From Tessaracoccus timonensis (GTDB lineage: Bacteria; Actinomycetota; Actinomycetes; Propionibacteriales; Propionibacteriaceae): a stretch of 64,000 bases of DNA. The notes under the pieces were generated by a model. It saw only the letters and a program-made list of their open reading frames with translations. It was not told the DNA's origin and did no database searches. The position numbers were made by a program, and so were the translations under genes. This document shows, piece by piece, positions 37,281-62,791 of this stretch. Location of the stretch: assembly GCF_900343145.1 (NCBI RefSeq), contig NZ_LT996886.1:1488001-1552000 (forward strand), written 5' to 3'. Numbering within the stretch: position 1 is the stretch's first letter; every line of letters starts with the position of its first letter.

Positions 37281-37282
37281 CT

Positions 37283-38242: not shown

Positions 38243-39820
38243 ATGAATATGGACAAATTATCTGGCGTATCCACGCACGAACCTGGTCAAGCACGACGTC
38301 GTTCGCGGTTGCGAGGACTCGTAGCAGCGTCCGTTGCAGCCGCACTGGCGGTGTGCGGCAGCATCAGTACCGCTCAAGCAACAACATGTGAACCAACGCC
38401 TGGAACCAGCGGGTGGTACACGGGCTCTGACGACACAGTCGACTTCAAACGCTCAGCCGATCTTGCCTATGAGTTCCTCGACGAACGTGTAGACATGTAC
38501 GGCACGGGGTCTGAGATGCGTCTTGCCCGCAGCTACCAGGGTGGCTTTTTCGACTCTCTTCCCGGAGGGTTCGTGTCGTCGTTCCTGTACGATGATGCGC
38601 TCATCATCATGGCCTACCTCGCCCGAGGCCTTCCCCAGGACATTGAGCGAGCTTCAGCCCTTGGTGACGCGTTTGTCCACATTCAGAACGAAGACCCGTA
38701 CGCTGACGGACGCACGAGGTCTTCGTATCAAGCCGATAGCCTCCAGGCTGGCGTCGTTGAGATCGGATCATCTTCGTCGTTTACCGGCAATCAAGCCTGG
38801 GTGGGCATGGCGCTGACGCATCTGTACAAGGCCACTGGCGAGCAGAAGTACTTGGATGCCGCGCTCCGCTCGGCAGAATGGATCGAGAAGAACGCAGCCG
38901 ACCGTGGGCACGCCCCCTATGGCTACACGGGCGGTCAGAATGCTGACGCCGTACCCTTCACGTTCAAGGCCACGGAGCACAACATCGACATCGCTGCCTT
39001 CTTTGGGCAACTCGCCGAAGTCACCGGCGACGCCAAGTGGGAAGAGCGGGCTGCCACTGCTTCTGACTTCATGAAGGCCATGGTGTCTGAACACGGGCAT
39101 CTGTGGACGGGGACGAACCCCGACGGCGTCTCCACGAACTACTATCCTGTTCCGGAAGATCCGCAGAGCTGGAGCTACCTCACCGCACTCGATGACGGCT
39201 ACCTGCCAGCACTGCAATGGACAGTAGACAACCTGCACGCACAAGACGGCGCCTACGAGGGCCCGGCGTTCAGCAATGCTGATGTCTCCAAGGTCTGGTT
39301 CGAAGGATCTGGGCAGTTGGCGCTGGCGCTTCGCCACGCCGACCGTGACCGTGAGTACACGGAATCGATCCTTCGCAGCATAGAACGAGCTCAGCGTGAA
39401 GCCCCTAACGGCGACGGGAAGGGCATCGTTGCTGCGTCCAGCGACGGGCTCGATACCGGGTATGGGGATCTCTACCACTCAAGCCTTCACACGGGCGCTA
39501 CCGCGTGGTACCTCCTAGCACTGTCGGGATACAACCCCTTCCAGGTGACGCAGAGCCAGCCCGCTGACGCTGCACCGTCGGACCCAGGCACGTGCGACAA
39601 CGGTGAGAACGGCGCCGGCGGCTCGGAACAAGGCTCTGGAACGTCCGCTGTGGACGGTTCGGAATCGACAACACCGGAGGAAGACCACTCCGGAACAACA
39701 GAAGCAGGATCGAACCCGACGGGCAAGACGCCAGGTCCGGGCAAGAAGGAGTCTGAGCAGCAAGTCGAGGGCGGTTTGCGCGGCCCCGGCCTTCCTACCA
39801 CCGGGTTGGGCATCCTGTAG
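38243..39820 (+). CDS. Secreted six-hairpin glycosidase-like protein with tailless LPxTG end
   Basis: About 525 residues from ATG 38243 (GAAGAGAGAG upstream; ATG 38216 abuts the permease stop and is less likely). The signal peptide RLRGLVAASVAAALAVCGSISTAQA follows a basic lead. The body has repeating helical pairs typical of (alpha/alpha)6 glycosidases: ADLAYEFLDERVDMYGTGSEM, SSFLYDDALIIMAYLARGL, NQAWVGMALTHLYKATGEQKYLDAALRSAEWI, NIDIAAFFGQLAEVTGDAKW. The family is not certain. A Gly/Ser/Glu-rich linker leads to GPGLPTTGLGIL and stop: an LPxTG motif without hydrophobic anchor or basic tail. It is four codons or so after the permease gene, so co-transcribed. Confidence 0.82.
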   Translation: MNMDKLSGVSTHEPGQARRRSRLRGLVAASVAAALAVCGSISTAQATTCEPTPGTSGWYTGSDDTVDFKRSADLAYEFLDERVDMYGTGSEMRLARSYQGGFFDSLPGGFVSSFLYDDALIIMAYLARGLPQDIERASALGDAFVHIQNEDPYADGRTRSSYQADSLQAGVVEIGSSSSFTGNQAWVGMALTHLYKATGEQKYLDAALRSAEWIEKNAADRGHAPYGYTGGQNADAVPFTFKATEHNIDIAAFFGQLAEVTGDAKWEERAATASDFMKAMVSEHGHLWTGTNPDGVSTNYYPVPEDPQSWSYLTALDDGYLPALQWTVDNLHAQDGAYEGPAFSNADVSKVWFEGSGQLALALRHADRDREYTESILRSIERAQREAPNGDGKGIVAASSDGLDTGYGDLYHSSLHTGATAWYLLALSGYNPFQVTQSQPADAAPSDPGTCDNGENGAGGSEQGSGTSAVDGSESTTPEEDHSGTTEAGSNPTGKTPGPGKKESEQQVEGGLRGPGLPTTGLGIL

Positions 39821-39826
39821 CCCCCC

Positions 39827-39842
39827 GGGCAGGCGGCTGCCC
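39827..39842 (+). terminator. Stem-loop after the transporter-glycosidase operon
   Basis: GGGCAG, loop GCGG, CTGCCC forms a 6-bp stem six bases after the stop. Further G+C-rich stems follow to about 39895 (GCACCATGCGGTGC, GGCAGCCGC...). Likely end of the 34943-39820 operon, without a T-run. Confidence 0.5.
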
Positions 39843-39987
39843 GCAGTACCGCACCATGCGGTGCTGCGCGGCAGCCGCAGGGTGTGTGCTGCCCGCATGA
39901 ATGAACCATGAATTGCAGCCAACTGATTCCTCACAGCATTGGGCACCGCGAATATCAGTTCGCCCAAGACAACTATGTGGAGAGTGC

Positions 39988-41103
39988 ATGAACCAGCTTC
40001 GGGTCACTGAGAAAGCGTCGCCGATGGACAGTAGGCAGAACAATCGCGCGTTACTGCTGCAGTACCTCTTCCACGACGGCGAGATGAGCAGGGCTGACCT
40101 CTCTCGGGTATCCGGTCTTACACGGATGTCCGTGTCAGACCTTGTCGCCGAGCTGGATTCCGAGGGTCTGCTGCTCGACCTCGGTACCCGTGCCCGGTCG
40201 AAGGTAGGGAAACCCCCTACCCTGATCGCGCTCGACGACAATGCTCGGCACGTCATCTCACTCAATCTCTCGGACGATCACCGAGTGACCGGGGCGCTGC
40301 TCAACCTTCGGGGCGAGATCCTCGAGCGTCGCGAGGCGGCACTCCGGGGCCAGATGGGTGAGGATGCAGCCAACGTCGCGCTTGGCGTGGCGAGGGACCT
40401 GAAGCAAGCGTCCAATGTTCCTGTGCTCGGCGTCGGGATCGGGTCTCCGGGCGTGGTCAACCGCGACGGTGTCATCCTTGAAGCGCCGAACCTGGGATGG
40501 GTGAATCAAGCTCTCGCTGAGCCCTTCTCTCATTCGCTCGGCGTGCCCACGCACGTCGCCAATGACGCTAATGCGGCCACGCTGGCCATTCATACGTTCC
40601 ATGAGGGCGGCGGCAAGAACATGATGCTCGTGCTCATCGGTAAGGGAGTTGGTGCTGGGCTGATCATCGACGGGGCCCTCGTGCAGGGCGACGCGTTCAC
40701 CGCGGGTGAGATTGGACACGTCGTGATGGATGAGGAAGGGGCACTGTGCAGCTGTGGCCGTCGTGGATGTTTAGAAACGCTGCTGAGCGTCTCGCACTTG
40801 GGTAAGCAGCTGAGTGCAGCCGATGTGGAACAGCAGCAATGCTTGCTGCGCAAAGCCGGACGCTCCCTCGGCGCAGCGCTCACCCCCATCATCGCCGCCC
40901 TAGGCATCAGTGCAGTCACCCTCGCAGGCCCAGCCGAGTTCATGGCAGACGCCTTGCGCGAGGAAATGCGATCGACCGTCGAGCGGCGCACGTTGCCTGC
41001 GGTCACTGGGCAGCTCCAGGTGGACTCGGCCACGAACCCTGGCGATCTGGTGCTGCAAGGCGCTGCTGCGCTGGTGCTCAGCAATGAACTCGGCATCTCC
41101 TGA
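39988..41103 (+). CDS. ROK family transcriptional regulator
   Basis: The 371-residue product from ATG 39988 (GGAGAG upstream) has an N-terminal winged HTH (LLLQYLFHDGEMSRADLSRVSGLTRMSVSDLVAEL, ~23-57) and a ROK domain. The ROK part keeps the sugar-binding pieces GIGSPGVV, NDANAA, GEIGHVVMD and the zinc motif CSCGRRGCLE. The phosphate-binding DxGGT is replaced by NLSDDHR, so it senses rather than phosphorylates sugar. It lies between the transporter operon and the ROK kinase gene and is a likely regulator of the island (inference). Confidence 0.92.
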   Translation: MNQLRVTEKASPMDSRQNNRALLLQYLFHDGEMSRADLSRVSGLTRMSVSDLVAELDSEGLLLDLGTRARSKVGKPPTLIALDDNARHVISLNLSDDHRVTGALLNLRGEILERREAALRGQMGEDAANVALGVARDLKQASNVPVLGVGIGSPGVVNRDGVILEAPNLGWVNQALAEPFSHSLGVPTHVANDANAATLAIHTFHEGGGKNMMLVLIGKGVGAGLIIDGALVQGDAFTAGEIGHVVMDEEGALCSCGRRGCLETLLSVSHLGKQLSAADVEQQQCLLRKAGRSLGAALTPIIAALGISAVTLAGPAEFMADALREEMRSTVERRTLPAVTGQLQVDSATNPGDLVLQGAAALVLSNELGIS

Positions 41104-41129
41104 AGCGCTGTATTCGAAGGAAGTGACAG

Positions 41130-42125
41130 GTGCATATCGGTATTGACATCGGTGGAACCAGCATCGAGGCGGTGGCAGTCGACGACGAGCTGTCCATTGT
41201 GCACCGCACGCGTAGCGCAACGAGGACGGGGAACGCGAACGTCGTGCATGGTGTCAAGGACACCGTGAAGGAGCTGCTCCAAGCTGTGCGCGGCGATGAG
41301 CATCACGTTCACCGCATTGGGATTGGTATTCCAGGCGTTATTGACCGTGCCGATGGCCGCGTAAGGCATGCAGTCAACCTCGGAGTGGAGGATCTCGCCT
41401 TGGGGCAGATCATGGCCGCAGAGTTTGACGCCGATGTGGTTATCGACAACGACGTGAATGCCGCAGCGTTTGGTGCCACTCATCTACTCGGCCTTGGGCA
41501 ATCCACCGCCTATCTCAACCTCGGTACGGGCATGGCGGCAGGAATCGTGGTCAACGGCGCTATCTGGCGTGGCGCTAGGGGTGGTGCTGGAGAGGTTGGC
41601 CACGTACCTCTCAAGGCCGACGGCCCCGTGTGCGCCTGTGGCCAGCGCGGCTGCCACGAGACTTATGCATCAGGCTCGGCGCTTACACGCCTGTGGCCTA
41701 CGACGCAGCCGTATCCAGCTCTTGACCTTTTCAATTGCGCGGATGCTGGTGACGAACGTGCCCTGGTGGTGAAAACCAACTTCGTCGAAGCTGTTGCGAG
41801 CGCCGTGCGGATGTTGATCCTTACGGCAGACGTGGAATCGGTGGTGATCGGGGGCGGCCTGAGTAACCTCGGGGAACGCCTCAAACAGCCACTGCTGGAC
41901 GTATTTCAGCGGTGGTCTACGCAGTCAGCATTCATACGATCGCTTGCGCTGGACTCTCGTACATTGCTCCTCCCCAGTGGTTTGCCAGCGGCAGCGGTTG
42001 GTGCCGCTCTCCTCGCTTGGGAGCCGAACATGGGGGTTCTCGGCACGAATTCCGATGATGCTGAGCGTTCATACCGTAGCCAGCAGAGCACTGCGGAATT
42101 TCCTACAGCAAGTGCTGATACCTGA
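41130..42125 (+). CDS. ROK family sugar kinase (probable N-acetylhexosamine kinase)
   Basis: The 331-residue product from GTG 41130 has an intact ROK kinase set: DIGGTSIEA (6-14), GIGIPGVIDRADG, VIDNDVNAAAFGA with catalytic Asp, LNLGTGMAAGIVV, GEVGHVPL and zinc motif CACGQRGCHE. No DNA-binding domain is present. It should phosphorylate the monosaccharide released by the GH20 enzymes, most plausibly GlcNAc, though glucokinase activity cannot be excluded. It is 26 bases after the ROK regulator and probably in the same operon. Confidence 0.9.
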   Translation: MHIGIDIGGTSIEAVAVDDELSIVHRTRSATRTGNANVVHGVKDTVKELLQAVRGDEHHVHRIGIGIPGVIDRADGRVRHAVNLGVEDLALGQIMAAEFDADVVIDNDVNAAAFGATHLLGLGQSTAYLNLGTGMAAGIVVNGAIWRGARGGAGEVGHVPLKADGPVCACGQRGCHETYASGSALTRLWPTTQPYPALDLFNCADAGDERALVVKTNFVEAVASAVRMLILTADVESVVIGGGLSNLGERLKQPLLDVFQRWSTQSAFIRSLALDSRTLLLPSGLPAAAVGAALLAWEPNMGVLGTNSDDAERSYRSQQSTAEFPTASADT

Positions 42126-42225
42126 GCGCGGGATATGAAGAGCCCAAACGTATCAACACCCTCCCAGGGTACGCCCTATTGCCGGTTGGCTAGGTTGGAC
42201 GCAGTTGTAAGCACATTTCGACAGA

Positions 42226-43428
42226 GTGGATGGTGAAACGGTGAAGGACGGAGTCACTGGGGGTGTTTCCAAGAGCGCTGACCCGAAGTCGATTCGTTTC
42301 TGGAACGAGCAACTCGTCATCGACGTGATGCGCAACCAGGACGAACCGCTACGGATCGCGGAACTGGCTGAGCTGACGGGGCTGACGCCTGCGTCATTGG
42401 GGCATCTCTTGCGTGGGCTCGAGGCCAAGGGCTGGGTTGCAGCAGCAGGCAGCCAGGAGCGTCGTCGAGGCAGGCCTCCTCAGCTGTTCTCGCTCGTGCG
42501 TCCCCAGGGGTGCGTGCTCGGCATCGATTTCGGCGCGCGCATATCGCGCATTGTGAGCATCGACATGCTGGGCGCCGAACAGGGACGCGCTGAGATTCCC
42601 GTGGATGAGCACGTCGACGGTGACTACCGAGCACTCAGCCGCCGTCTCCTTGACGAAGTGCTGCCGGAGAGGAACGGGCCCGTCTGGGCGGTGGGCGTCT
42701 CCTTGAGCGGCGAGGCCCATCAGCGCATGCTGCTGGACGAGTCTGCATCGGATACCAACGAGCAGATCACCGCATTGCGTGAGGAGCTTCGCGCTCGTGG
42801 CCTACACGACCACATCATCGAAGTGTGGGACGGTCACGCTGCGGCACTTGCGGCGCAACGGATAGATATGGAAGGCCGCGGCCGGGCCATGTTGTACCTG
42901 CACCTTGACCGCACTCCGAAGCTCTGCGCGGTGACCGAACGCGGCGTCTACGTTGGCGCGCACGGGCGGGCCGGACTCGTGCATGGGCGGCGTTTCGTGT
43001 CGATTCCTGACGGTTCCGGCAAGCCCCAGGCGTCCCTCGAACTGGCCTGTAATGAGGCGTTCGACCAGATTGAGCAGGCCGTCGCTGGAGACGCTGAAGC
43101 GCTATCGGCGGTGAAGGCATGCCTTGCAGCGTCAGGGTCGAAGATCGGGTTCGTCGCGGCGGTGATGGACCCCAGCGTCGTCGTCGTGGGCGGAGCGCTC
43201 TCGCCACTGCGAGACCTCGTGTTACCCGCGGTGAAGGAAGCCATCGAAACGCAGACCGGATATCCGATCAACGTTGTCGACTCTGGGCTCGACGAGTTTG
43301 GCGTCGCCACCGGGACAGCGTTCACTGCGTGGCAGAAGGCGTTTAGCCTGCTGATCTCGTACGACGCGGGCGCGCAGGAGTTCTCGGCCGAGCAGGTGCA
43401 CAAGCTCTGGGTGAAGCAGCCCTGCTAG
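42226..43428 (+). CDS. ROK-like transcriptional regulator with degenerate sugar-kinase domain
   Basis: The 400-residue product (GTG 42226; GTG 42241 also possible) has an N-terminal HTH (EPLRIAELAELTGLTPASLGHLLRGLEAKGWV, ~39-70) and the basic wing RRRGRPPQLF. The ROK domain is eroded. DxGGT is DFGAR, the His of GEIGH is embedded in RAGLVHGRR, and the CxCGxxGC zinc motif is absent. It is therefore not a kinase and may not bind sugar in the usual way. It has its own upstream region with ACCCTCCCAGGGT (about 42159-42171), a 5-bp dyad. Likely second regulator of the island. Confidence 0.86.
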   Translation: MDGETVKDGVTGGVSKSADPKSIRFWNEQLVIDVMRNQDEPLRIAELAELTGLTPASLGHLLRGLEAKGWVAAAGSQERRRGRPPQLFSLVRPQGCVLGIDFGARISRIVSIDMLGAEQGRAEIPVDEHVDGDYRALSRRLLDEVLPERNGPVWAVGVSLSGEAHQRMLLDESASDTNEQITALREELRARGLHDHIIEVWDGHAAALAAQRIDMEGRGRAMLYLHLDRTPKLCAVTERGVYVGAHGRAGLVHGRRFVSIPDGSGKPQASLELACNEAFDQIEQAVAGDAEALSAVKACLAASGSKIGFVAAVMDPSVVVVGGALSPLRDLVLPAVKEAIETQTGYPINVVDSGLDEFGVATGTAFTAWQKAFSLLISYDAGAQEFSAEQVHKLWVKQPC

Positions 43429-43457
43429 CGCTGCCGCACTGCAGCAGCGCGCCCCGA

Positions 43458-44099: not shown

Positions 44100-44228
44100 G
44101 TCACCAGCGTACCGAATGCCTTCGCCCGGCGAGCTAGCTGCGCTGGGGGAAGTGCGGGGTGCGCAAAAAAGTGTGCCTCGATGTAGTGGAGGCCCTTCGC
44201 ATGACCCGACGCGGCGCTAGTCTACAAC

Positions 44229-44240
44229 GTAAACGATTAC
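44229..44240. promoter_or_regulatory. LacI-family-type operator upstream of the secreted GH20 gene
   Basis: GTAAACGATTAC is a near-palindrome (10 of 12 positions) with the central CG and GTAA/TTAC ends typical of LacI-family operators. It lies 40 bases before the ATG, overlapping a possible TACAGT -10. No LacI-family gene is in the window. Confidence 0.55.
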
Positions 44241-44280
44241 AGTTCGCGAAGCTGCGAGCTGCCGAACAGATGAGGTAACG

Positions 44281-47200
44281 ATGCCAAATCAACCCCCAAC
44301 TCGGATTCGTACACGAGTGGGAGCTTTGACCGCAGTTTGTATGGTGGCGACGATGACTTCGACGCCAGCACTCAATGCGGAAGCTGCTCCCGATGCTGCG
44401 ACTCCGAGCCCCGCGGTATTCGTGGAGGAAATGACAGGCCAACATGCGGTCACCAACACCAAAGACAAGTGGGACATTGGAGCGACCGATCTCGGTGTGA
44501 TGTGGGAGGACGGTGAAGGCGGGATTCTGACGGCCTTCGGCGACACGTTCTCCACGCCAGGCAAGGACGGCGCCGGTGTCGATAACTGGCGCTCCAACGT
44601 GCTGCTGCGCTCCACTGACGAGAACCTCGCCGACGGCATGAGCTTCGATTGGGCGCTCACCGGTGAGGACGGCAAGGCCAAAGGGATCATCGAGGGCAAA
44701 AAGAAAGATAACGAGGAGATGACGGTCATCCCCACCGCCGGTATCGCAGTGGGCGAGCGCCAGTACCTTGACTTCATGTCGGTGCGCCACTGGGGAGAGC
44801 CCGGCCAGTGGGACACGAACTTCGCCCAGATGGCGTACTCCGACGACCGCGGGGAAACCTGGAAGACCGACGACGCCCCGCGCTTCGATAACCCCGACGG
44901 TAACGACCCGCTGCAGATGAAGGCCTTCGCCAAGGATGGCGGATATGTCTACATTTTCGGCACCCCAAATGGGCGCCTCGGCGACGCGCACCTCGCCCGC
45001 GTGAAGGAAGGCGAGCTGCTCGACAAGAGCGCCTGGGAGTTCTACACCGGCTCAGCGTGGACGAAGGAGTACGCGTCGATCGCCCCGCTGATTAAGGGCC
45101 CGGTTGCCGAGCTGTCGGTACGCAAGGACCCGCACTCCGGCCTGTGGCAGATGATCTACCTCGACGGCAACGCCGACCTTGTCTTGCGTACTGCCACTAA
45201 GCCGACGGGGCCCTGGCAGGAGCCTCAGGTGCTCGCCACCCAACAGGATTACCCGGGGCTGTACGGGGGGTTTATGCACCCGTGGTCGCCCAAGGGAGAG
45301 CTCTACTTCGCGATGTCGGTGTGGAACGAGTACAACGTCGCGCTGATGAAAGTCACGCTTGATGACAAGGGCAAGATCACGTACCCGAACTTGCTGGTGG
45401 ATCCGTCCTTCGAGCGCAGCGACAAGTTTGATGTTCCTGGGGGCTGGAGCCCGTCGAATGCTGGCGGCATTGATACTGAATCTGCGTGGGCCAATGTGGG
45501 CCGCCGGCAATTCTGGGTACGTGCGGCTGGCGGCGAACACCTGATGACGCAAAACGTCGCCGTCACTCCGCACACTGACTACCGCCTCACAGGCTGGCTC
45601 ACCACAGGAGACACCGTCGGCGGTAACGCCGGTGAAGGCAGGATCGGCGTGCGCCCAACCGAGATCGGCACCGACTTTATTGCGCAGAAAACATTTGGTG
45701 ACCTGCGTGGGTACACGAAGTTCGTCGTGGAATTCAATTCCGGTGAGCACCGGCAGATTCAGGTGTACGCTGGCTCGACGATGACCGGCGATCGCTGGGT
45801 GCAAGGCGACGACTTTAGCCTCGTCGCGTTGGGTGAACCGACGCAGGAAGCTGGCCCCGAGCCAGCCGCGCCGCCCGTGACGGTTCCGTCGCTTACTGAC
45901 TGGAGCGCTGCTGAGGGCTCCTGGAAGCTCGGCGACCAGACCCGCATCGTCGCGCCCGAGGAGTTCCGCGCCAGCGCAGACCTGCTCTCGCGGGAGATCG
46001 GCAACTACCGCGACGGCGCCCCCGCGCAGTTCGCCACCAGCGGCAAACAAGCGAGTGACATCGAGGTGCGCATCGATCCTGCCAAGCAGGACGAGCTTGG
46101 CGACGAGGGATACTCCCTGGACGTGAACACCGACGGCGTCACCATCGTCGCGGCCACGAAGGCGGGCGCGTTCTACGGAACCCGCACCGTCTCGCAGTTG
46201 CTGCGCCAGGACACGACGCTTACCGCGGGGCACACCGTCGACAAGCCGAAGTACTCCGAGCGCGGCCTCACCATCAGCGCCTACGAGGTGAACATCTCCG
46301 ACGAGTGGATCGATCGCATGCTCGTCGAGATGGCCGACCTGAAGCTCAATCAGGTGTTGCTGCAGATCAAGGTGAAATCCGACAAGTACCCCAAGCTCAA
46401 CACCTGGAGCTACTACCCGAAGGAGCAGGTGAAGAAGTTCGTCGCGAAGGCGAACGCCATGGGTATTGAGGTAATTCCGGAAATCAATGCGCCCGGCCAC
46501 ATGGGCGTCGTGCTGGAAAATTACCCGGAGTTCCAGCTCATTGATGACAAGGGGAAGCATCAGCCCAATAGACTTGACGTCTGTAATCCCAAGGCAGTCG
46601 AGTTCTACCTGGACCTCATGGATGAATACATCGAGGTGTTCCAGCCGAAGCAATGGCACGTCGGCTCGGACGAGTACATGCTGGGTAGCGACCCGGCGCA
46701 CTACAAGCGCCTCGTTAAGTGCGTGCGCGACAAGTTCGGCGATGAAGCGGTCACTGGTGATGCGTTTGAGACCATCAACAACGCCGTGTTCGACTTCGTG
46801 AACACCGTCAATGCGCACGCCAAGAGCAAGGGCCTGACGCTGCGCATGTGGAACGACGGCATCCACGGCGCGACGAAGGTGCAGCTCGATTCGGACATCG
46901 TGGTGGAGCATTGGATCGACCGCGGCGTCCCCGCCAAGTCGATCCTCGATCGCGGGCACAAGATCATGAACGCCTCGCTGGCGCTCTACGACACTCGCCA
47001 TCCCAATGAGGACATCTCCATTCATCCGGAGAATCTGTGGACGTCCAGGTGGCACCCCGGCGTGTTCTTCGGCAGCCACGGGCGCGTCGAGCCTGGCCAC
47101 CCGCAGCTCACGGGTGTGAAGGCCTCGATGTGGGTCGACCACGCTCAGGCCATGACGGAGAACGCCCAAGCCGAACGCATCCGCGACGGCCTTCGCTTCG

Positions 47201-48759
47201 TCGCGCAGATGGGGTGGACGGGCAATCACGGCGGCAAGAGCTGGAACCAGTTCAAATCGGATATCGACGCTGTGGGGCGTTCGCCGCAGTGGATGAATGT
47301 CGACGATCAGCCGCTGGAGGAGGGCATGTACCGGTTCTCGCTCCACGGCGAGCCGAATAAGGTGCTGGGCGAGAAGGGAATTGAGCCCGACGTGTACGGC
47401 ACCGATACGTGGTACCTCACGCCCACGCCGGATCGCTACTATCAGCTGCGCTCCAGCGTGACGGGACAGTGCCTCGCGATGTCGAAGGGCTTCGAGACGC
47501 TCGGCGTTGTTACCGAGATCGGTGCCGCGCCGAATTTCGAGCCGTGTCGATCCATTGAGGATCAGTCTGCGAACAAGCAGAAATGGCAGATCATCCGCGA
47601 CGGTGACGGCATCTATCGGGTCACCAACGCCACCACCAACGCGGTGCTGTCGGAGACTGATGGCGACGAGGTTCGTCCTCACCGCTACCTGGGCGGCAAG
47701 GAGTACCCGGAACAGGCGCTCGAGGCCGGCAAGCTCGCGCAGCTTCCCGGCGATATGAGCGCCGACAGGTGGAGCATCACGCCCGCCGTCGGGTTGGCGT
47801 TGCAAACGGAGCGCACGCAGCTCTGGCCAGGTCAGACGGCGAAACTCACGCTGAAGGTCACCAACAACGGCACCGCCGACATCCGCGACGCGACACTGCA
47901 CGCGCAGTTCCCCGAGGGTTGGAAGGTCTCTGACCTGCCCGAGATTCCGGTGGTCCCGGCCGGGGAGAGCAAGGAGTTCACGCTCACGCTCACGAACGTC
48001 GACGCGGCCCTCGGCAAGGCATTCCTACCGCTCATTCTCGACTCGAGCGCTGGCAAGGTGAGCGCAGGCGTGGTGATGGAATCCGTCTGTGGTGAGCCGA
48101 CGACGCCGAAGTTCGTCTCGGCGGATACCGAGCAGACGTGGGGTGAGGGCCCCGGCAGTGGGCTGGGCAGCGCCGCAGTGGACGCTAACCCCGCCACCTA
48201 CTGGCACACGGAATGGGACACCAACACGCCCTTCCCGCACGAGATCGTCGTCGATACCGGCGAGGTGCAGGATCTGTGCGGTTTGGGGCACCTGCCCAGG
48301 GCGGGCGCGAAGGCTCGACAGGCCAAAGAGTACGAGATCTACGTCTCCGACGATGGCAAGGACTGGGGCGAGCCCGTGTCGAAGGGCACGCTGGAGCGTG
48401 TCGACGACTGGCAGCAGCTCTCGTTCGACGCGCGCGGCCGGTACGTGAAGTTCGTCGGCCTGAACGCGTGGCCGGATTCGGACGAGCCCGCCGAGGACAA
48501 CCCGTGGATGGCCGTGGCAGAGCTCACGGTGACTGCGAAGTCGGGTGTCCTGCGTCCGGGAACCTCCAAGGCTCCCGTCATGGAACCGGCAATCGTGAAC
48601 ATCGGGATGCCCGAGCAGCCCGATCCGGACCCGCAGCCTGACCCGGACCCGCAGCCTGACCCGTCGGGTGAAGAGAAACCAGATCCCTCGGATAAGCAGC
48701 AGCCGCCCAAGCGCGATGCCGATCGTCCGCGGCCCGGTCTGCCGAGGACAGGGTTCTAA
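44281..48759 (+). CDS. Multidomain secreted beta-N-acetylhexosaminidase (DUF4185-CBM-GH20-lectin-NEW3-F5/8C) with tailless LPxTG end
   Basis: 1492 residues. A signal peptide (~1-35) is followed by a DUF4185-like five-blade domain (~50-365, DKWDIGATDLGVMW...FGDTF). Next come a jelly-roll carbohydrate-binding region (~371-515, LVDPSFERSDKFDVPGGW), GH20b (~535-645) and the GH20 barrel (~655-1010) with the catalytic pair D797-E798 in WHVGSDEYM. Then come a ricin-like region (~1020-1165, YYQLRSSVTGQCLAM), a NEW3-type domain (~1171-1258, PGQTAKLTLKVTNNGTADI), a discoidin/CBM32-like domain (~1262-1425) and an Asp/Pro repeat linker. The last residues are PGLPRTGF, an LPxTG motif one residue from the end with no anchor. 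Probable role: releasing terminal GlcNAc/GalNAc from host or wall glycans. ATG after GATGAGG. Confidence 0.9.
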   Translation: MPNQPPTRIRTRVGALTAVCMVATMTSTPALNAEAAPDAATPSPAVFVEEMTGQHAVTNTKDKWDIGATDLGVMWEDGEGGILTAFGDTFSTPGKDGAGVDNWRSNVLLRSTDENLADGMSFDWALTGEDGKAKGIIEGKKKDNEEMTVIPTAGIAVGERQYLDFMSVRHWGEPGQWDTNFAQMAYSDDRGETWKTDDAPRFDNPDGNDPLQMKAFAKDGGYVYIFGTPNGRLGDAHLARVKEGELLDKSAWEFYTGSAWTKEYASIAPLIKGPVAELSVRKDPHSGLWQMIYLDGNADLVLRTATKPTGPWQEPQVLATQQDYPGLYGGFMHPWSPKGELYFAMSVWNEYNVALMKVTLDDKGKITYPNLLVDPSFERSDKFDVPGGWSPSNAGGIDTESAWANVGRRQFWVRAAGGEHLMTQNVAVTPHTDYRLTGWLTTGDTVGGNAGEGRIGVRPTEIGTDFIAQKTFGDLRGYTKFVVEFNSGEHRQIQVYAGSTMTGDRWVQGDDFSLVALGEPTQEAGPEPAAPPVTVPSLTDWSAAEGSWKLGDQTRIVAPEEFRASADLLSREIGNYRDGAPAQFATSGKQASDIEVRIDPAKQDELGDEGYSLDVNTDGVTIVAATKAGAFYGTRTVSQLLRQDTTLTAGHTVDKPKYSERGLTISAYEVNISDEWIDRMLVEMADLKLNQVLLQIKVKSDKYPKLNTWSYYPKEQVKKFVAKANAMGIEVIPEINAPGHMGVVLENYPEFQLIDDKGKHQPNRLDVCNPKAVEFYLDLMDEYIEVFQPKQWHVGSDEYMLGSDPAHYKRLVKCVRDKFGDEAVTGDAFETINNAVFDFVNTVNAHAKSKGLTLRMWNDGIHGATKVQLDSDIVVEHWIDRGVPAKSILDRGHKIMNASLALYDTRHPNEDISIHPENLWTSRWHPGVFFGSHGRVEPGHPQLTGVKASMWVDHAQAMTENAQAERIRDGLRFVAQMGWTGNHGGKSWNQFKSDIDAVGRSPQWMNVDDQPLEEGMYRFSLHGEPNKVLGEKGIEPDVYGTDTWYLTPTPDRYYQLRSSVTGQCLAMSKGFETLGVVTEIGAAPNFEPCRSIEDQSANKQKWQIIRDGDGIYRVTNATTNAVLSETDGDEVRPHRYLGGKEYPEQALEAGKLAQLPGDMSADRWSITPAVGLALQTERTQLWPGQTAKLTLKVTNNGTADIRDATLHAQFPEGWKVSDLPEIPVVPAGESKEFTLTLTNVDAALGKAFLPLILDSSAGKVSAGVVMESVCGEPTTPKFVSADTEQTWGEGPGSGLGSAAVDANPATYWHTEWDTNTPFPHEIVVDTGEVQDLCGLGHLPRAGAKARQAKEYEIYVSDDGKDWGEPVSKGTLERVDDWQQLSFDARGRYVKFVGLNAWPDSDEPAEDNPWMAVAELTVTAKSGVLRPGTSKAPVMEPAIVNIGMPEQPDPDPQPDPDPQPDPSGEEKPDPSDKQQPPKRDADRPRPGLPRTGF

Positions 48760-48761
48760 CG

Positions 48762-48825
48762 AAGGCAGGCCTCTGACACTTGTTCCGCAACTGAGCGGAA
48801 TATGTGTCAGAGGCCTGAGCCTTTG
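48762..48825. terminator. Bidirectional terminator-like hairpin between GH20 and lysS
   Basis: Arms at 48767-48788 and 48795-48816 pair at 19 of 22 positions (AGGCCTCTGACAC ... GTGTCAGAGGCCT) around a 6-base loop, with an outer AAGGC/GCCTT extension. It begins just after the GH20 stop and ends just before the lysS stop. The two genes converge, which fits a shared terminator. Confidence 0.75.
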
Positions 48826-48832
48826 CTGGGGG

Positions 48833-52452: not shown

Positions 52453-52489
52453 GGTATGCGACGCCACCCATCGATGGCACAATGACGCC

Positions 52490-54960: not shown

Positions 54961-55021
54961 CGCCTTGTTCCTTTCCAGCTTTTCAACATTCTGGCAGACC
55001 GACGTCCGATTACAAGGCGCA

Positions 55022-56452: not shown

Positions 56453-57843
56453 GAGGCAATCAACTCCGTCGAATCACCCTCGCTCGCCTCCATCATCTGC
56501 GGAGTGGCGGTGGCGGCTTGCGGCATGCGCGCCCGATGGGAGACCACCATGAGCAAGCCGACGAGCAACCAGTTCGCGAGCAGCGACGACCCGCCCTGAC
56601 TCATGAACGGCGTGGTGAGGCCGGTGAGGGGCAGCAACAGCGTGACGCCGCCGATAATCGAGAACACCTGCAGCGCAAGGATGAAGCTGAGCCCGCTCGC
56701 GAGCAGCTTGCCGAACCCGTCGGGGCAGATCAAGGCCGTCTTCAGTCCCCGCATGATGATGAACGTGTACACGAGGATGATGCCCATCAGTCCGACGATG
56801 CCCACCTCTTCGCCCAGCGCGGTGGCGATGAAGTCGCTCTTCGCCAACGGCGTGAGCCCTGGACGGCCTTCGCCCCAGCCCTGACCGAACAACCCGCCCC
56901 AGGCCATGCCGAACAGGCCATTGATGATCTGCCCATTCGCGTCGGTGTTGGCGAACGGATCCAACCAGTTGTGCACGCGCTTCGGCACGTGCGAGGTGAA
57001 CAGGTATGCGGCCGCTGCTGCGGCGACGAACATGAGGAAGGCCAGGATGGGCCAAAATGCGCGCTGCGTGGCGACGTAGAGCATCACCGTGAACAGGCCG
57101 AAGATCAGCAACGCCATGCCCAGGTCGCGCTGGAACACCATCACCATGAGCGCCATCGTCCACATGATGGCGATGGGGATGAAGTCTCTCGCCCTCGGGA
57201 TGGTGATGCCCAGCACCTTCTTGCCTGCGAGGGCGAGCACGTCGCGTTTTTCATAGAAGTAGGCGGCAAACGCGATGGCGAGCGCAATCTTCGCGATTTC
57301 GGCGGGCTGGAAACTGAACTGTTTGACGCGAATCCAGATGCGCGCACCGTTCAGCTCCACGCCAAGCGGGGTGAGCGGCAGCAACAACAAGAACAGCGAG
57401 AAGAGAAACAGCAGGTACGGGTAGCGCTGCAGGCGACGGTGATCGGGCATCCAGCACGCGACCGTGATGAACACAGCCACGCTGAGTAGCGTCCACAACA
57501 GCTGCATCTCGGCATCGTGCTTCGGCACATCGGGGATGAGGTCGATGCGGGCGATCATCGACAGGCCAATGCCGTTCAGCAGGAACACCGACGGCAGCAG
57601 CACCGGGTCGGCGTACGGCAGCTTCCAGCGCACCGCGATATGCGCGGCGATACCCACGCCGAACCAGATGATGGCTGCGCGCATCCAGTCGAGCGGTAAC
57701 GCACCGGTCGCATTCAGGTGTACGGTGACCCAGCTGCCGTACCCGATGGCGAGCGCCAGGAGCAGCAACCCGAGCTCAACCCCGCGGCGCTTCCGGTAGA
57801 CGATCACCTCGCCTGACAGTTCAGGCTGGACAGCAACACTCAT
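56449..57843 (-). CDS. rodA: FtsW/RodA/SpoVE family peptidoglycan glycosyltransferase
   Basis: This 464-residue SEDS protein has around ten to twelve hydrophobic segments. SEDS landmarks include GARIWIRVKQFSFQPAEIAKIALAIAFAAYF, QRDLGMALLIFGLF, GLFGMAWGGLFGQGWGEGRP, KSDFIATALGEEVGIVGLMGIILVY and LTGLTTPFMSQGGSSLLANWLLVGLLM. These include the conserved Gln/Gly loops of lipid II polymerases. It works with PbpA. The name rodA follows the gene-order convention of this cluster; FtsW-like duty cannot be ruled out by sequence. Confidence 0.94.
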   Translation of the reverse strand: MSVAVQPELSGEVIVYRKRRGVELGLLLLALAIGYGSWVTVHLNATGALPLDWMRAAIIWFGVGIAAHIAVRWKLPYADPVLLPSVFLLNGIGLSMIARIDLIPDVPKHDAEMQLLWTLLSVAVFITVACWMPDHRRLQRYPYLLFLFSLFLLLLPLTPLGVELNGARIWIRVKQFSFQPAEIAKIALAIAFAAYFYEKRDVLALAGKKVLGITIPRARDFIPIAIMWTMALMVMVFQRDLGMALLIFGLFTVMLYVATQRAFWPILAFLMFVAAAAAAYLFTSHVPKRVHNWLDPFANTDANGQIINGLFGMAWGGLFGQGWGEGRPGLTPLAKSDFIATALGEEVGIVGLMGIILVYTFIIMRGLKTALICPDGFGKLLASGLSFILALQVFSIIGGVTLLLPLTGLTTPFMSQGGSSLLANWLLVGLLMVVSHRARMPQAATATPQMMEASEGDSTELIAS

Positions 57844-57844
57844 G

Positions 57845-59269
57845 TCAGCAGCTCTCGGGGTCTGCCTCCGCCGTGGCGGTAGGCGTCATGGGTGCGAGGT
57901 GCGTCGGGAAGCCGGCTTCGACGTCGTTCGCCTGTTCCTCACCTTCCGGCACCGGCAGGCCAGGAATCGACGCGACGGCCGTCGGCGACGGGCTGGGGGA
58001 GGGGGCAGCGTCGACGGGTTTGAGCCGCTGTTCCCGCACCGCCCGGCAGCGCTCTGCGAGGCCACGTAACTGCTCCGCTGTGGCCCTGCCCGCGTCAAGA
58101 TCTTGTACCGCAATGGTGTTATTGACCGCCTGGCGATGGAACTTGGGCAGGTCATCGACGGCGACGTCGGTGTTCTCTGCGACGGTGTTGAGCGGCATCC
58201 CGAGCAGGGAGCCCGGCATGCCGTTGTAGATGGCGACGGTGCCCGCCGCAGGCGCGATGTAGTAGCGGGAACTCACGAATCGCTCCAGGCCCCAGGCCCC
58301 CACGCCAATCACGAGCGCGATGGCCATGCACACCGAGAGCAGGCCAATCCATCCTCGCCCGGAGTCTTTGGGTGCGTAGCGGGCGCTCTCGTCGGGTGTT
58401 TGCTCGGTGGCCTCGGCTTCCGGAGCGGGCTTAGGAGCCGACGGATACCCGCTCGGCTTGCCGGATTTCGCGGCCAGGGCGCCGATCTTCGGCACCTCCA
58501 CCTCGATGGCGGAGCCGAACAGCTCGCCGGAGCGCTCGTCGAGCGCATCGTCTTGTGGCACCAACTCGCCGATGACGATGGTGATGTTGTCGTGCCCGCC
58601 GTGCTCGTTGGCAAGCCTGGCGAGCTCAACGCAGGCGTCGTCGACATCATGGCTGGCCAGCACATCGCGGATGGTGGCGTCGTCGACGAGGCCGCTCAAC
58701 CCGTCGGAGCAAAACAGCAGGCGGTCGCCTTCGGCGACGTCGAGGAGGGTGAGGTCGGGATCGAAGCCTTCCTGCCCGTTCAGCACCTTCAGGATGAGGG
58801 AGCGATGGGGGTGCGTGGCGGCCTGCTCGGGGGTGAGCCTGCCCTCGTCGATGAGCGACTGCACCCACGAGTGGTCGTGCGTGAACTGGGTGAGTTCGCC
58901 GTCGTGGAGCAGGTAGCCGCGGGAGTCGCCGATGTGCCCGACGGCGAACTGCTCGCCGTTGAACATTGCGCCGCAGAACGTGGTGCCCATGCCGTCGATG
59001 GAGGCGTCTTCTTCCACGAGGTCGCTGATTTTGAGATTGGCGCGGTTGATGATGCCCGCGATGGCGGCCAGCATGTCGTCGGGGTCGCTGAGCCTGCGGT
59101 CGGTGCGCTTGGCTTCCGTGGCGGCGACGGCGGAGGCCAAGTCGCCGGCTGCGGCGCCGCCCATGCCGTCGCACACGAGCAGCATCGTCGGCGACGCGTA
59201 GGCCGCGTCCTGGTTGTTCTTACGCACGCGCCCCACCTCGGAATGGGCGGCCCAGCGGATGGAGTACAT
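57845..59269 (-). CDS. pstP: PP2C-type serine/threonine phosphatase PstP
   Basis: This 474-residue membrane phosphatase opposes PknB. The cytoplasmic PP2C domain (~1-240) has the metal motifs RKNNQDAAYA, LVCDGMGGAAAGD, HIGDSRGYLL, LFCSDGLSGLV and GGHDNITIVIGEL. A linker of about 60 residues precedes one membrane segment (WIGLLSVCMAIALVIGVGAWGLERFV), and a ~140-residue outer tail is Pro/Ser rich near the end (PVDAAPSPSPSPTAVASIPG). The stop lies one base before the RodA start, so expression is coupled. Confidence 0.95.
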   Translation of the reverse strand: MYSIRWAAHSEVGRVRKNNQDAAYASPTMLLVCDGMGGAAAGDLASAVAATEAKRTDRRLSDPDDMLAAIAGIINRANLKISDLVEEDASIDGMGTTFCGAMFNGEQFAVGHIGDSRGYLLHDGELTQFTHDHSWVQSLIDEGRLTPEQAATHPHRSLILKVLNGQEGFDPDLTLLDVAEGDRLLFCSDGLSGLVDDATIRDVLASHDVDDACVELARLANEHGGHDNITIVIGELVPQDDALDERSGELFGSAIEVEVPKIGALAAKSGKPSGYPSAPKPAPEAEATEQTPDESARYAPKDSGRGWIGLLSVCMAIALVIGVGAWGLERFVSSRYYIAPAAGTVAIYNGMPGSLLGMPLNTVAENTDVAVDDLPKFHRQAVNNTIAVQDLDAGRATAEQLRGLAERCRAVREQRLKPVDAAPSPSPSPTAVASIPGLPVPEGEEQANDVEAGFPTHLAPMTPTATAEADPESC

Positions 59270-59272
59270 GCC

Positions 59273-59743
59273 TCAGGCCTCCAATCGCATCAGGGTGCGG
59301 CCAATCCGGACGACGTCGCCGACGGTAACGGGCACGGGCTCGTCGCCGACGCGTTTGCCGTTGACGAACGTGCCGTTGGTCGAATTGAGGTCGCTCACGA
59401 GCCAGGTTTCTGCGTCACGCTGCACGAGCTGGGCGTGCCGGGCCGAGGAGAACTCGTCGTCGAGTAGCAGGGTCGAATCGGCGGAGCGGCCGAGGTTGAT
59501 CGTCGGTTGCACTTCGACGGCGATGCCTTGCTGCGGGCCGTTCGTGATGGCAAAACGTGTGGGCACGTGCTGGAGACGGTGGTGTTCAGGACGCCCGCGA
59601 TCGGCTGGGATGGCGCTGAGTGATGACGCGGGGACGCGGCGGCCGAATACGTCGGAGCGAATTGTGCCTGCCACGAAGAAGATGAACAGCCACAACAGCA
59701 AGAGGAAGACGATTTTCGTCGTCGCAACGATGAGCTCGGACAC
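59273..59743 (-). CDS. fhaB: FHA-domain protein FhaB/FipA
   Basis: This 156-residue protein has an N-terminal membrane segment (IVFLLLLWLFIFFVAGTI) and a C-terminal FHA domain that binds phosphothreonine. Markers are INLGRSADSTLLL, FSSARHAQLVQ and DLNSTNGTFVNGKRV. In mycobacteria FipA links FtsZ and FtsQ-type proteins. It lies three bases upstream of pstP and starts at GTG. Confidence 0.93.
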   Translation of the reverse strand: MSELIVATTKIVFLLLLWLFIFFVAGTIRSDVFGRRVPASSLSAIPADRGRPEHHRLQHVPTRFAITNGPQQGIAVEVQPTINLGRSADSTLLLDDEFSSARHAQLVQRDAETWLVSDLNSTNGTFVNGKRVGDEPVPVTVGDVVRIGRTLMRLEA

Positions 59744-59747
59744 GCGG

Positions 59748-60440
59748 TTACATCTCCGACGGCGCGTGCACCAGCATGCGCGTGTTGCCGATCTCGATGC
59801 GTGACCCTTCTCTCAGAGCCGTCTTCGTGACCTTCGTGCCGTTGACGGTGACGCCATTGGTGGAGCCTAGATCTTCAATCGTCACCACAGGGCGTTCCGG
59901 CGTGCCAGAGACGGTGATGAGCGCATGACGACGAGACACGCCCGGGTCGTTCAAACGCAGGTCGGCGTCGACGCCGCGGCCTACCACCAAGCCCGGCGGA
60001 ACGAGGGGATGGCGCACGCCGTGCACTTCGACGACGAGCCGCCCGCCCGACGCGGTGGCGTCGGACTTTCCTTCGACGGCCTCGCTACGGATGGTGAACT
60101 GCCCTGTGGGGAGGTGTTCTTGCAGCTCGTACTCGATGACAATCGGGCCGCTGAACACGAAGTTGTTCTCGGCGGCATGCTCGCGGATGCCGGGGAGGAT
60201 CTCGGCGTTCAGCGTGCGAGCGTACGGGAAGAGACGCTCGTAGTCGTGTTGTGAAAGGCCGACGAGGAAGTGATTAGGGACGAGACGCTTGCCCTTGCTG
60301 AGAAGCTTCGACTCAGCCTCGAGCTCTCGTTGGATACCTGCGGCAATCTCGACGGGCTGCACGTCGCCTTTGAAAGCGCGCGCGAACACCTTGCCGACCA
60401 CAGAATCGATCTTGCGTTCCGCCTTGTCGAAGACGCCCAC
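59748..60440 (-). CDS. fhaA: FHA-domain protein FhaA with DUF3662
   Basis: The 230-residue product has an N-terminal DUF3662 domain (~1-125: KIDSVVGKVFARAFKGDVQPVEIAAGIQRELEAES, FLVGLSQHDYERLF) and a C-terminal FHA domain (VGRGVDADLRLNDPGVSRRHALI, DLGSTNGVTVNGTKV). In M. tuberculosis FhaA binds phosphorylated MviN and controls lipid II flipping. The linker between the domains is much shorter than in the ~530-residue mycobacterial protein. It is the first gene of the cluster; GTG start after GAGGAGGA. Confidence 0.94.
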   Translation of the reverse strand: MGVFDKAERKIDSVVGKVFARAFKGDVQPVEIAAGIQRELEAESKLLSKGKRLVPNHFLVGLSQHDYERLFPYARTLNAEILPGIREHAAENNFVFSGPIVIEYELQEHLPTGQFTIRSEAVEGKSDATASGGRLVVEVHGVRHPLVPPGLVVGRGVDADLRLNDPGVSRRHALITVSGTPERPVVTIEDLGSTNGVTVNGTKVTKTALREGSRIEIGNTRMLVHAPSEM

Positions 60441-60487
60441 GGGATCCTCCTCTCGTTCGCTACTGGCCTAATCCCCGGCAAGTGTAC

Positions 60488-61531
60488 CTACTTGCCGCGC
60501 AAGGCTGCACTCTCGACGTCGTCGCCCGCCCAGCCGAGCGTGTCGACGGAGTTCGCGAATGCTGCCAGCACCTGCTCGGCGCCTTCGAGCGCGCTGAGCT
60601 CTTCCGTAGCGAGCTTGGCTTCGACTTCCGCCGCGACGGCCTGCACCGATGGTGACGTGCGCAGGGCCTCCTCCAGCTCGCCGCGCACCATATTCCACAG
60701 CCATTCGCGCTGCTGCTCGAGGCGACGTCGGGTGAGTACGCCTTGTGCTTCGAGCTCTTCACGGTGTTTGACGACGGCGTCCCACACCTCGTCGAGGCCC
60801 GCGCCGGTGTAGCTGGAGCACGTGAGTACGGGGGCGCGTCGCTTCTCGGTGTCGCTGGTGACGAGCTTCATGGCGATGCTCAGATCTCGAGCAGCAACGC
60901 GCGCCTCGCCCTCGTTGTCACCGTCGGCCTTGGTAATGGCGATGACGTCGGCGAGTTCGAGGATGCCGCGCTTGATGCCTTGCAGCTGGTCGCCCGTTCG
61001 CGCCACTTGCAGCATGAGGAAGGTGTCGACCATGCCGGACACCGCCACCTCAGACTGGCCTACGCCCACCGTCTCGACGAGCACGACGTCGTAGCCAGCC
61101 GCCTCGAGTACCAGCATGGACTCGCGGGTGGCGCGAGCCACACCGCCGAGATGCCCGGCCGATGGTGAAGGGCGGACGAAGGCGTCGTCGAGCGACGCGA
61201 ACTCGCCCATGCGGGTGCGGTCGCCGAGGATGGAGCCTCCGGTGCGGGATGAGCTTGGGTCGATGGCGAGCACGGCCACCTTGTGGTGGCGCTCTTGGAC
61301 GAGCTTGATGCCCATTGCGTTGATGAACGTGGATTTGCCCGCACCAGGCACGCCCGAGATGCCCACGCGAAACGCCTTACCCGTGTCAGGGGCGATGGTT
61401 CGTAGCAGTTGGTGGGCGAGCTGACGATGCTCAGGGTTGGTGGACTCCACGAGGGTGATGGCGCGAGCAATGTGCCCTCGCGACCCTTCGCGGATGTGAG
61501 AAGCCAGTTCGTCGACGTTGATCTTGCGCAC
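60488..61531 (-). CDS. meaB: MeaB/ArgK family P-loop GTPase
   Basis: The 347-residue product from GTG 61531 (VRKINVDELASHIREG). The G3E GTPase core has P-loop GISGVPGAGKSTFINAMG, switch GDRTRMGEFA, VLVETVGVGQSE and ITKADGDN. The C-terminal helical dimerisation arm is present (REWLWNMVRGELEEAL). MeaB protects and reloads adenosylcobalamin-dependent methylmalonyl-CoA mutase. The mutase genes mutAB usually sit immediately upstream, but are not in this window. An upstream open extension to 61690 has no ribosome site. Confidence 0.93.
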   Translation of the reverse strand: MRKINVDELASHIREGSRGHIARAITLVESTNPEHRQLAHQLLRTIAPDTGKAFRVGISGVPGAGKSTFINAMGIKLVQERHHKVAVLAIDPSSSRTGGSILGDRTRMGEFASLDDAFVRPSPSAGHLGGVARATRESMLVLEAAGYDVVLVETVGVGQSEVAVSGMVDTFLMLQVARTGDQLQGIKRGILELADVIAITKADGDNEGEARVAARDLSIAMKLVTSDTEKRRAPVLTCSSYTGAGLDEVWDAVVKHREELEAQGVLTRRRLEQQREWLWNMVRGELEEALRTSPSVQAVAAEVEAKLATEELSALEGAEQVLAAFANSVDTLGWAGDDVESAALRGK

Positions 61532-61694
61532 GTCATCAACCCTATCTCGGGGACCTGACAATTCCGACGGTGGGTGCGGCTGGGCCGAGACAGCGTCACG
61601 TGGACACCTCGTGGGAACCCCGATAACGGGCACCTCATCCCGGCTGATTGCACCCGTGATGTGGTTGTTGCTGGGGCGTGCGCCGGTCATCAGG

Positions 61695-61700
61695 TATTAT
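61695..61700 (+). promoter_or_regulatory. Putative -10 element for the secreted Pro/Ser-rich protein
   Basis: TATTAT is a near-consensus -10 located 39 bases before the ATG at 61739. I see no good -35 at 16-18 bases, so it may be regulated. Confidence 0.35.
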
Positions 61701-61738
61701 CGGGCGAGCTGTGCCCTTGGAAGAAAGGTGAGTGCGTG

Positions 61739-62791
61739 ATGCACATCGAGCGTTCCAAGCAACACGTTCGGGTATTCGCTGCGAGTGCTGGAGTGATGGC
61801 GCTGGTTTTCGCGTCTCTTCCCGGCCAGGCATCGGCGGCCGAGGAGCCCGTCGCGCAGATATCGGCGAAATCCGACGTAGCGATGCAGTACCAGTGGTCT
61901 ATCGAGAACACCGCATCGAAGTCATCGCTTGGCACGGTGCCGGGCGGATCCACAGTCTCCACCGAGTACACCGTCGTGGCCACGCCCGGCGACTACGAGT
62001 ACACACGCGCCGTGATCGCCGGCAACGTATCGATCACCAACCCCAGCGACTCCGATGAACTCTCCGTCCAAGTAACGGTGGAGAGCTCCGACGCAGCCTG
62101 GGCCTGCGAGGCTGCCACGCCGACGGCCACCGTCAAGGCAAGCGAGAGCGCAACCGTTGCCTACGACTGCATCCTGTCAGGCGACGCCGAGCCGCACGAA
62201 CAAGCCAGCATCGACGCCGTCATCGCGTGGTCGGGTGCTGACGGTGAGGGCACCGTGAAGTCGAGCACCTCGTACCAGCTCAACCCCGAGCAGACCAACC
62301 GCGAAGTGGCCGTCGAAAGTACGCTCGACGGCGGCGCCCCCGTAACGCTCGGCACAGCCCACTGGACGGTGGAAGGCAAGCCCGTCACGTTCCACGACAC
62401 TCGCGAATTCACGGCTGCCACGAAACCCGGCGAATACACCGTGACGAACCAGGCGCGCATCGGCAGCTCCGGCGCCCAGGCCACAGCGGCGGTGACGTAC
62501 ACCGTCGAGGAGCCCAGCCCATCCCCATCTCCGGAAACGCCGTCGCCGAGCGAGACCCCGGAAACGCCGTCGCCGAGCGAGACCCCGGAGGCGCCGTCGC
62601 CGAGCGAGACCCCGGACGCACCGTCGCCGAGCGAGACCCCGGAGGCGCCGTCGCCGAGCGAGACTCCGGACGCACCGTCGCCGAGCGCTACGCAGTCGGC
62701 CAACCCCAGCACGCCGTCGCCCACCGAGAGTCACAGCGACGGGAACCGTCGCCCCTCGCCGGGTATGCCGCCCACGGGCGTCGACCGGTAG
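61739..62791 (+). CDS. Secreted protein with Pro/Ser/Glu tandem repeats and tailless PxTG end
   Basis: The 350-residue product from ATG 61739 (GTG 61736 adjacent; AAGAAAGG upstream) has a signal peptide ending ALVFASLPGQASA. Residues ~30-260 look like two immunoglobulin-like or DUF11-like strand domains with a conserved Cys pair (DAAWACEAAT, VAYDCILSG). Residues ~267-315 are tandem nonapeptides [TA]PSPSETP[ED], then a Ser/Thr/Pro stretch. It ends RRPSPGMPPTGVDR, an LPxTG-like motif with only three residues after it. Likely a surface or wall-spanning protein. Function unknown. It stands divergent from meaB. Confidence 0.82.
   Translation: MHIERSKQHVRVFAASAGVMALVFASLPGQASAAEEPVAQISAKSDVAMQYQWSIENTASKSSLGTVPGGSTVSTEYTVVATPGDYEYTRAVIAGNVSITNPSDSDELSVQVTVESSDAAWACEAATPTATVKASESATVAYDCILSGDAEPHEQASIDAVIAWSGADGEGTVKSSTSYQLNPEQTNREVAVESTLDGGAPVTLGTAHWTVEGKPVTFHDTREFTAATKPGEYTVTNQARIGSSGAQATAAVTYTVEEPSPSPSPETPSPSETPETPSPSETPEAPSPSETPDAPSPSETPEAPSPSETPDAPSPSATQSANPSTPSPTESHSDGNRRPSPGMPPTGVDR
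62537..62671 (+). repeat. 27-bp tandem repeat, five full units, inside the secreted protein gene
   Basis: Units start at 62537, 62564, 62591, 62618 and 62645, with a partial sixth to about 62692. They read RCGCCGTCGCCGAGCGAGAC-type and differ mainly at the first and last codons (ACG/GCG/GCA; GAA/GAG/GAC). They encode nine residues each and are likely to vary in copy number between strains. Confidence 0.9.

Follow-up and report, generated by a model that had tools for sequence, protein, structure and literature searches.

Three tagged proteins in the window

The stretch of DNA analysed here, referred to below as the window, is a 64-kb segment (C1:1488001-1552000) of the single-contig 2.76-Mb genome of Tessaracoccus timonensis, a member of the Arachnia/Tessaracoccus group, and it encodes three exported proteins that end in a sortase-signal-like motif, PG[L/M]PxTG, followed by only a few further residues. 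A six-frame scan of the window for [LMIVFA]PxTG at 10 or fewer residues from the end of a frame of more than 100 codons finds exactly three such ends, all on the + strand. The motifs lie at 39791, 48739 and 62765, each is directly preceded by PG, and they are followed by four (LGIL), one (F) and three (VDR) residues respectively (Table 1). These are the three ends pointed out in the initial annotation, and the scan finds no others. All three proteins have a Sec-type signal-peptide-like segment at the N terminus, which bears out their description as exported proteins; the likely starts are 38249, 44281 and 61739, and none has a clear later membrane segment. The earlier open reading frame start at 61574 for the gene ending at 62791 is probably too early, 61739 being the likely start. 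The first protein has a weak match to PF07944, a GH127-type glycosidase domain (20.6 bits, below the cut-off of 24.9); a structure model of it from its sequence alone has a predicted local distance difference test (pLDDT) score of 41.5 and was set aside. For the third neither Pfam (at 0.001) nor NCBIfam (at 0.01) gives a match.

It might be supposed that a normal sorting tail is hidden by a frameshift, by readthrough or by an assembly artefact, and the initial annotation had reported no lost membrane segment downstream. This holds for the two genes that end at 39820 and 48759, where neither readthrough nor either frame shift opens a hydrophobic continuation. It is slightly too strong for the gene ending at 62791, where in-frame readthrough remains open for 59 codons and includes a moderately hydrophobic stretch, NDVEVAVGVLTAGVQLLM, 27-45 codons on, with D and E inside. 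We read this stretch as chance because it overlaps a reverse-strand open reading frame and lies too far on for a normal tail. Among 81 tailless genes (a set in which up to 24 loci, L037-L060, were picked by the pattern with one residue after TG, written +1 below), an open, moderately hydrophobic continuation is found in 5, one by readthrough (the same window gene) and four in a shifted frame, but none is found in the other 76, for which frameshift or readthrough is unlikely; the claim that the window does not simply contain three frameshifts is sustained. In 39 of the 81 genes a hairpin of at least 8 bp lies no more than 80 nt past the stop, compared with 1.5% of base shuffles that keep base composition only, and independent genomes agree in their ends. 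We regard a hidden tail as extremely improbable.

Recurrence and form of the tag

A DNA search of the whole genome finds PGxPxTG at 17 places, compared with 1 for the reversed pattern. Eleven are tailless protein ends with 1-8 residues after TG, three are canonical, with a hydrophobic segment and a basic end, and three are chance or out-of-frame matches. The PG-type tailless ends have neither the hydrophobic segment nor the positively charged tail that follows a canonical LPXTG motif. In a crude test of hydropathy the N terminus of all 11 proteins resembles a signal peptide, and there is no clear membrane segment beyond it (maximum KD19 1.57). The proteins include a 1943-aa pullulanase, a GH35 protein, a double GH20 protein, a subtilase, a choice-of-anchor M protein and a phytase-like choice-of-anchor I protein. 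When the PG requirement is dropped, there are 24 places with one residue after TG compared with 8 in the control; we judge 11 of the 24 to be real protein ends, four of them without PG (Table 1). Of these four, two have a signal peptide, one is cut by the edge of its locus and one has none. A search for other secreted proteins with this end, as the initial annotation had proposed, therefore adds to the window proteins and gives 11 PG-type and four further tailless ends in this genome.

Two other frames on the - strand, at C1:853291 and C1:488122 (L384 and L381), end in the similar words LHACEKLPKTGY and LHACKILPKTGG and have no convincing signal peptide; these ends are probably unrelated to the tag.

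Table 1. Tagged proteins, their ends and an adjoining repeat (window positions), and tailless ends without PG (C1 positions)
Feature	Position	Strand	Remark
Exported protein, 523 aa, tailless tag	38249..39820	+	start codon inferred
Tag PGLPTTG + LGIL + stop	39785..39820	+	motif scan, coordinates rechecked
Exported protein, 1492 aa, DUF4185, GH20, F5/8 type C and ricin-type lectin domains, tailless tag	44281..48759	+	
Tag PGLPRTG + F + stop	48733..48759	+	motif scan, coordinates rechecked
Terminator-like perfect 14-bp inverted repeat, 48766-48779 with 48804-48817	48766..48817	.	just past the stop
Exported protein, 350 aa, long P/S/E/T linker, tailless tag	61739..62791	+	start codon inferred
Tag PGMPPTG + VDR + stop	62759..62791	+	motif scan, coordinates rechecked
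Tailless end without PG, IGLPSTGI	C1:408294	+	
Tailless end without PG, PSLPSTGV	C1:903197	-	
Tailless end without PG, PNLPSTGV	C1:1203686	-	
Tailless end without PG, PDLPQTGV	C1:2473151	+	

The tag is not confined to this genome. We examined 198 genomes of the family, 39 from the same genus, 9 from genus g8, 5 from genus g2 and 145 others. The genus includes Tessaracoccus oleiagri, T. lapidicaptus, T. antarcticus and Arachnia propionica OH887, as judged by sight from sortase sequences against named records, and g8 is presumably Cutibacterium. Within the genus PGxPxTG-X-stop occurs at 209 places compared with 5 for the reversed control, in 34 of the 39 genomes and up to 21 times in one of them, so that the end is anything but absent from relatives; its absence would have spoken against a signal. 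The corresponding counts are 19 compared with 0 in g8, 7 compared with 1 in g2, where three of the five genomes carry a single one, and 19 compared with 11 in the remaining 145 genomes. In a phylum sample of 396 genomes any match is found in 43, with at most 3 per genome save in the T. timonensis genome itself. The reversed-pattern controls lead us to reject a chance origin.

The form of the tag was read in five genomes (T. timonensis, G023, G029, G031 and G040) from a general motif and without preselecting the distance to the stop, so that these figures are free of the choice that enters the 81-gene set; for G023, G029 and G031 they cover 67 of 72 places. The 95 places comprise 65 tailless ends, 4 canonical ends and 26 other or short frames, and a signal peptide is seen by the crude test in most tailless proteins of G023, G029 and G031. 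The search pattern itself dictates the PG core, whose invariance therefore proves nothing. After TG there is one residue in 45 of the 65 tailless ends and there are three in 9, with a range of 1-13 and none at zero. The residue before PG, which lies outside the search pattern, is K or R in 54 of the 65 (R is found in 5 of 15 of the 'other' places), and only L or M is used at the position that the pattern leaves open to five residues. The variable x is K in 31, R in 20 and S in 8 of the 65, and the residue that directly follows TG varies, with R, A, V and S the most frequent.

The tag exists, is conserved and recurs on unrelated secreted proteins, and the genome and genus counts support the view of the initial annotation that it is a real short C-terminal signal, for which that annotation suggested recognition after export by a sortase or other transpeptidase, or a relic. 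Our verdict is that it is real, conserved and lineage-specific, and probably a tailless sorting tag whose most likely reader is a class-F-like sortase acting on soluble exported substrates.

Exchange with canonical anchors

The choice-of-anchor families are named for exchangeable C-terminal anchors, and two of the tailless proteins of T. timonensis match them: L028 matches PF22494 above the cut-off and NF038117 below it, and L023 matches NF038134 (choice-of-anchor M) above the cut-off. With the tailless PG[LM]PxTG-X end these families would gain a further kind of anchor. When orthologues of the choice-of-anchor I protein are compared, the protein is tailless in T. timonensis and in G029, whereas L331, L332 and L333 end in LPSTG or LPETG with a membrane tail and L334 in LADTG with a membrane tail. 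In one protein family, then, the tag takes the place of canonical anchors. The comparison covers this single family; contig ends truncate L336 and L338, and L340 is a distant sequence.

The LPxTG core is common to the tailless tag and to the canonical LPXTG signal described by PF00746, but the retaining hydrophobic segment and the basic tail of the latter are absent from the tag. Canonical-type anchors matching PF00746 at E 0.01 number 44 in 26 of the 39 genus genomes, and at least 30 of the 44 lie within 6 kb of a sortase, as measured against 30 genus sortases among the matches listed (down to E 9e-25) and two weak sortase-like places. No PF00746 match at 0.01 is found in G029 and G031, despite their 15 and 14 tailless proteins respectively.

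A candidate sortase

The T. timonensis genome has two class-F-like sortases and one class-E homologue. Matches to PF04203 are found only at C1:844966 and C1:2007775, neither of which has a class C model as its best match, and the class-F-like copy among them is found at E 1.6e-7. One of the class-F-like genes lies between genes recognised by sight as polA and rpsA. The other (C1:2305983-2306720; L324, found at C1:2306004) lies near a gene that by sight resembles aroA, and strong second class-F-like copies are also seen in G021, G029, G031 and G032.

A class-F-like sortase is found in 36 of the 39 genus genomes, and all 30 aligned genus sequences, that of T. timonensis included, keep the catalytic His, Cys and Arg. 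A sequence search for a solved structure gives none at E 0.001. The AlphaFold model of the class-F-like protein of T. oleiagri (pLDDT 80) has sortase A, 3rcc, as its best match (E 3.9e-6, template modelling (TM) score 0.37 by query length), and the protein is, as modelled, of sortase fold. Counting class-F-like sortases across the family at E up to 1e-15, two or more +1 tags are found in 38 of 75 genomes with the sortase compared with 3 of 123 without it, and, when the genus of T. timonensis is excluded, in 9 of 39 compared with 2 of 120. These sequence comparisons point to a class-F-like sortase as the best candidate reader of the tag.

The class-E homologue (C1:844945-845625; L001, L025) is present in 34 of the 39 genus genomes. 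Its Cys is lost in 18 of 30 aligned sequences (L141-L170), where it is replaced by D, E, A, H, G, S or Q, and its His is often lost too, so that both residues are kept in only 5 of the 30. With Cys replaced by Asp in T. timonensis and degeneration in most of the aligned relatives, this protein is unlikely to be the reader. We take it for a pseudo-sortase conserved in most of the genus.

Discussion

We favour, with modest confidence and on the strength of sequence, the reading that the tag serves as a cell-wall sorting signal without a tail, and that a class-F-like sortase catches soluble exported proteins by it and links them to the wall. The tagged protein would be exported by the Sec route and its signal peptide removed, after which it would be released on the outer face with no hydrophobic hold in the membrane, displaying a flexible Pro/Ser/Glu-rich linker that ends in [K/R]-P-G-L-P-[K/R/S]-T-G-X. 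A sortase near class F, itself bound to the membrane, would recognise this end, cut between T and G and discard G-X, and the threonine would then be joined to cell-wall peptidoglycan. Perhaps a fraction of the protein escapes to the medium, by analogy with AbpA of oral streptococci (see below). If one enzyme reads both tailless and canonical ends, this would explain the PG[LM]PxTG core common to the 11 tailless and three canonical proteins of T. timonensis.

There is precedent for a sorting signal without a tail. The end of AbpA, KAGKALPKTSAVK, is reported to be 13 residues long and without the hydrophobic and charged parts, to be required for anchoring and to carry green fluorescent protein (GFP) to the wall; the anchoring of AbpA is reported to depend on SrtB, which cuts AbpA between T and S, a portion of AbpA being released (Liang et al. 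2016, PMC4974636). The initial annotation could name no characterised system of exactly this form; none is found for PGLPxTG-X in the literature searched, but AbpA and SrtB are a characterised system with a tailless signal. As far as AbpA is described in that report, the two cases share a secreted protein, an LPxT-type motif and a very short non-hydrophobic end with no tail (three further residues in AbpA). They differ in that AbpA, with the motif LPKTS, is a single substrate, encoded next to a class B sortase gene of its own, whereas T. timonensis has many unrelated substrates ending in PGLPxTG-X, no adjoining sortase gene and a candidate sortase nearer class F; there is no dedicated sortase gene beside a substrate, the 11 PG-type tailless genes lying away from the sortase sites of the genome.

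DsA1 of Cutibacterium acnes is reported to have LPXTG with no membrane-spanning domain or charged tail and to occur in the supernatant as well as on the cell surface (PMC5527093). It is likewise tailless, but in the part of that report available the feature is noted for one protein and no tag family is described. The one sortase with which C. acnes is credited is of class F (PMC7913060), and a genome survey of three skin propionibacteria lists 12-18 C-terminal LPXTG proteins, few of which were seen in the surface proteome (PMC3848858). In the literature searched (open-licence PMC papers) we find no PGLPxTG-X system and no tailless tag family beyond AbpA and DsA1, nor a genus-wide tag family that outnumbers tailed signals of the same core.

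Several points weigh against our reading, and most of them concern the sortase. The NCBIfam class F model NF033748 is the best family for both T. timonensis copies, yet they score 51.6 and 37.6 bits with a cut-off of 166. The family-wide association of tag and sortase is confounded by shared ancestry, and within the genus it is not significant (29 of 36 compared with 1 of 3, p 0.13). G040, an assembly of 220 contigs and 97% complete, has 9 tailless proteins and no class-F-like sortase detected, whereas in G017, G022 and the genera g6 and g20 the sortase is present and the +1 tag is missing; in G059 (g8) the class-F-like gene (C1:843610-844261; L325) is divided between two frames, yet +1 tags are present. 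Looking for an unusual sortase or a co-occurring gene, as had been suggested at the outset, has produced a class-F-like candidate that co-occurs with the tag across the family, but not significantly within the genus and not in G040.

The tag may instead be read by something other than a class-F-like sortase, such as a sortase of a second type, a different transpeptidase or a receptor on the surface, and the tags of G040, the widely varying tag counts among genomes with the class-F-like sortase, and the presence of a class-E homologue beside two class-F-like copies in T. timonensis would all be consistent with this. However, the tag core is the same as that of the canonical LPxTG proteins of this genome, the class-E homologue seldom keeps both His and Cys, and neither of the PF04203 matches best fits a class C model; we consider such a reader rather unlikely.

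Other points concern the substrates. Three PG[LM]PxTG proteins of T. timonensis keep canonical tails, and among the choice-of-anchor I orthologues five readable ends lack any anchor (those of L330, L335 and L337, of L354, a fragment, and of L339/L353, a split gene), from which it follows that this protein can also live free. These five ends would suit a relic, in which former wall proteins have lost their tails, are now freely secreted and make no use of the motif, as would the several tagged proteins that are hydrolases able to work free in the medium. But random stops would scatter the distance from TG to the stop, and here exactly one residue predominates and zero never occurs; moreover, 34 of the 39 genus genomes have ends of this form, and K or R before PG is kept in most ends. 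On this evidence a relic seems improbable.

It is also conceivable that the tag is a sortase substrate with a product other than a wall-linked protein, the end being joined to pilins or glycans, or trimmed. SrtB is reported to process AbpA into a ladder as well (PMC4974636), which gives this some precedent, but no class C sortase is found among the PF04203 matches of T. timonensis though tags are frequent in its genome, and we think it quite unlikely.

Textbook wall sorting needs a membrane-retention tail. With a genus in which most of the PG-type LPxTG ends that were read are tailless, the role of membrane retention becomes testable. If a tailless signal is indeed used for wall sorting, a class of wall proteins would have been overlooked by searches of the PF00746 type, as G029 and G031 would illustrate, the sortase would have evolved for soluble substrates, and the occurrence of Cutibacterium surface proteins both bound and free could in part be explained. 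A broader proposal, which we put forward tentatively as possible but short of probable, is that most non-pilin wall proteins of a Propionibacteriaceae lineage have moved to a membrane-free route, in which soluble proteins are caught in trans by a housekeeping class-F-like sortase via the tag [KR]-P-G-L-P-[KRS]-T-G-X, mostly with an overhang of one residue, tailed signals being left mainly on pilin-like proteins that are read by other sortases. Such a tag would be a natural form of laboratory sortase tagging.

Neighbouring genes in the window

The gene at 38249..39820 follows, immediately downstream, a group of genes resembling those of a sugar ATP-binding cassette (ABC) transporter. By sight, the region 34943-42125 of the window holds sugar-ABC-transporter-like genes, the tagged glycosidase-like gene and two ROK-type genes, all in one direction, and it is likely that this is a sugar-use cluster.

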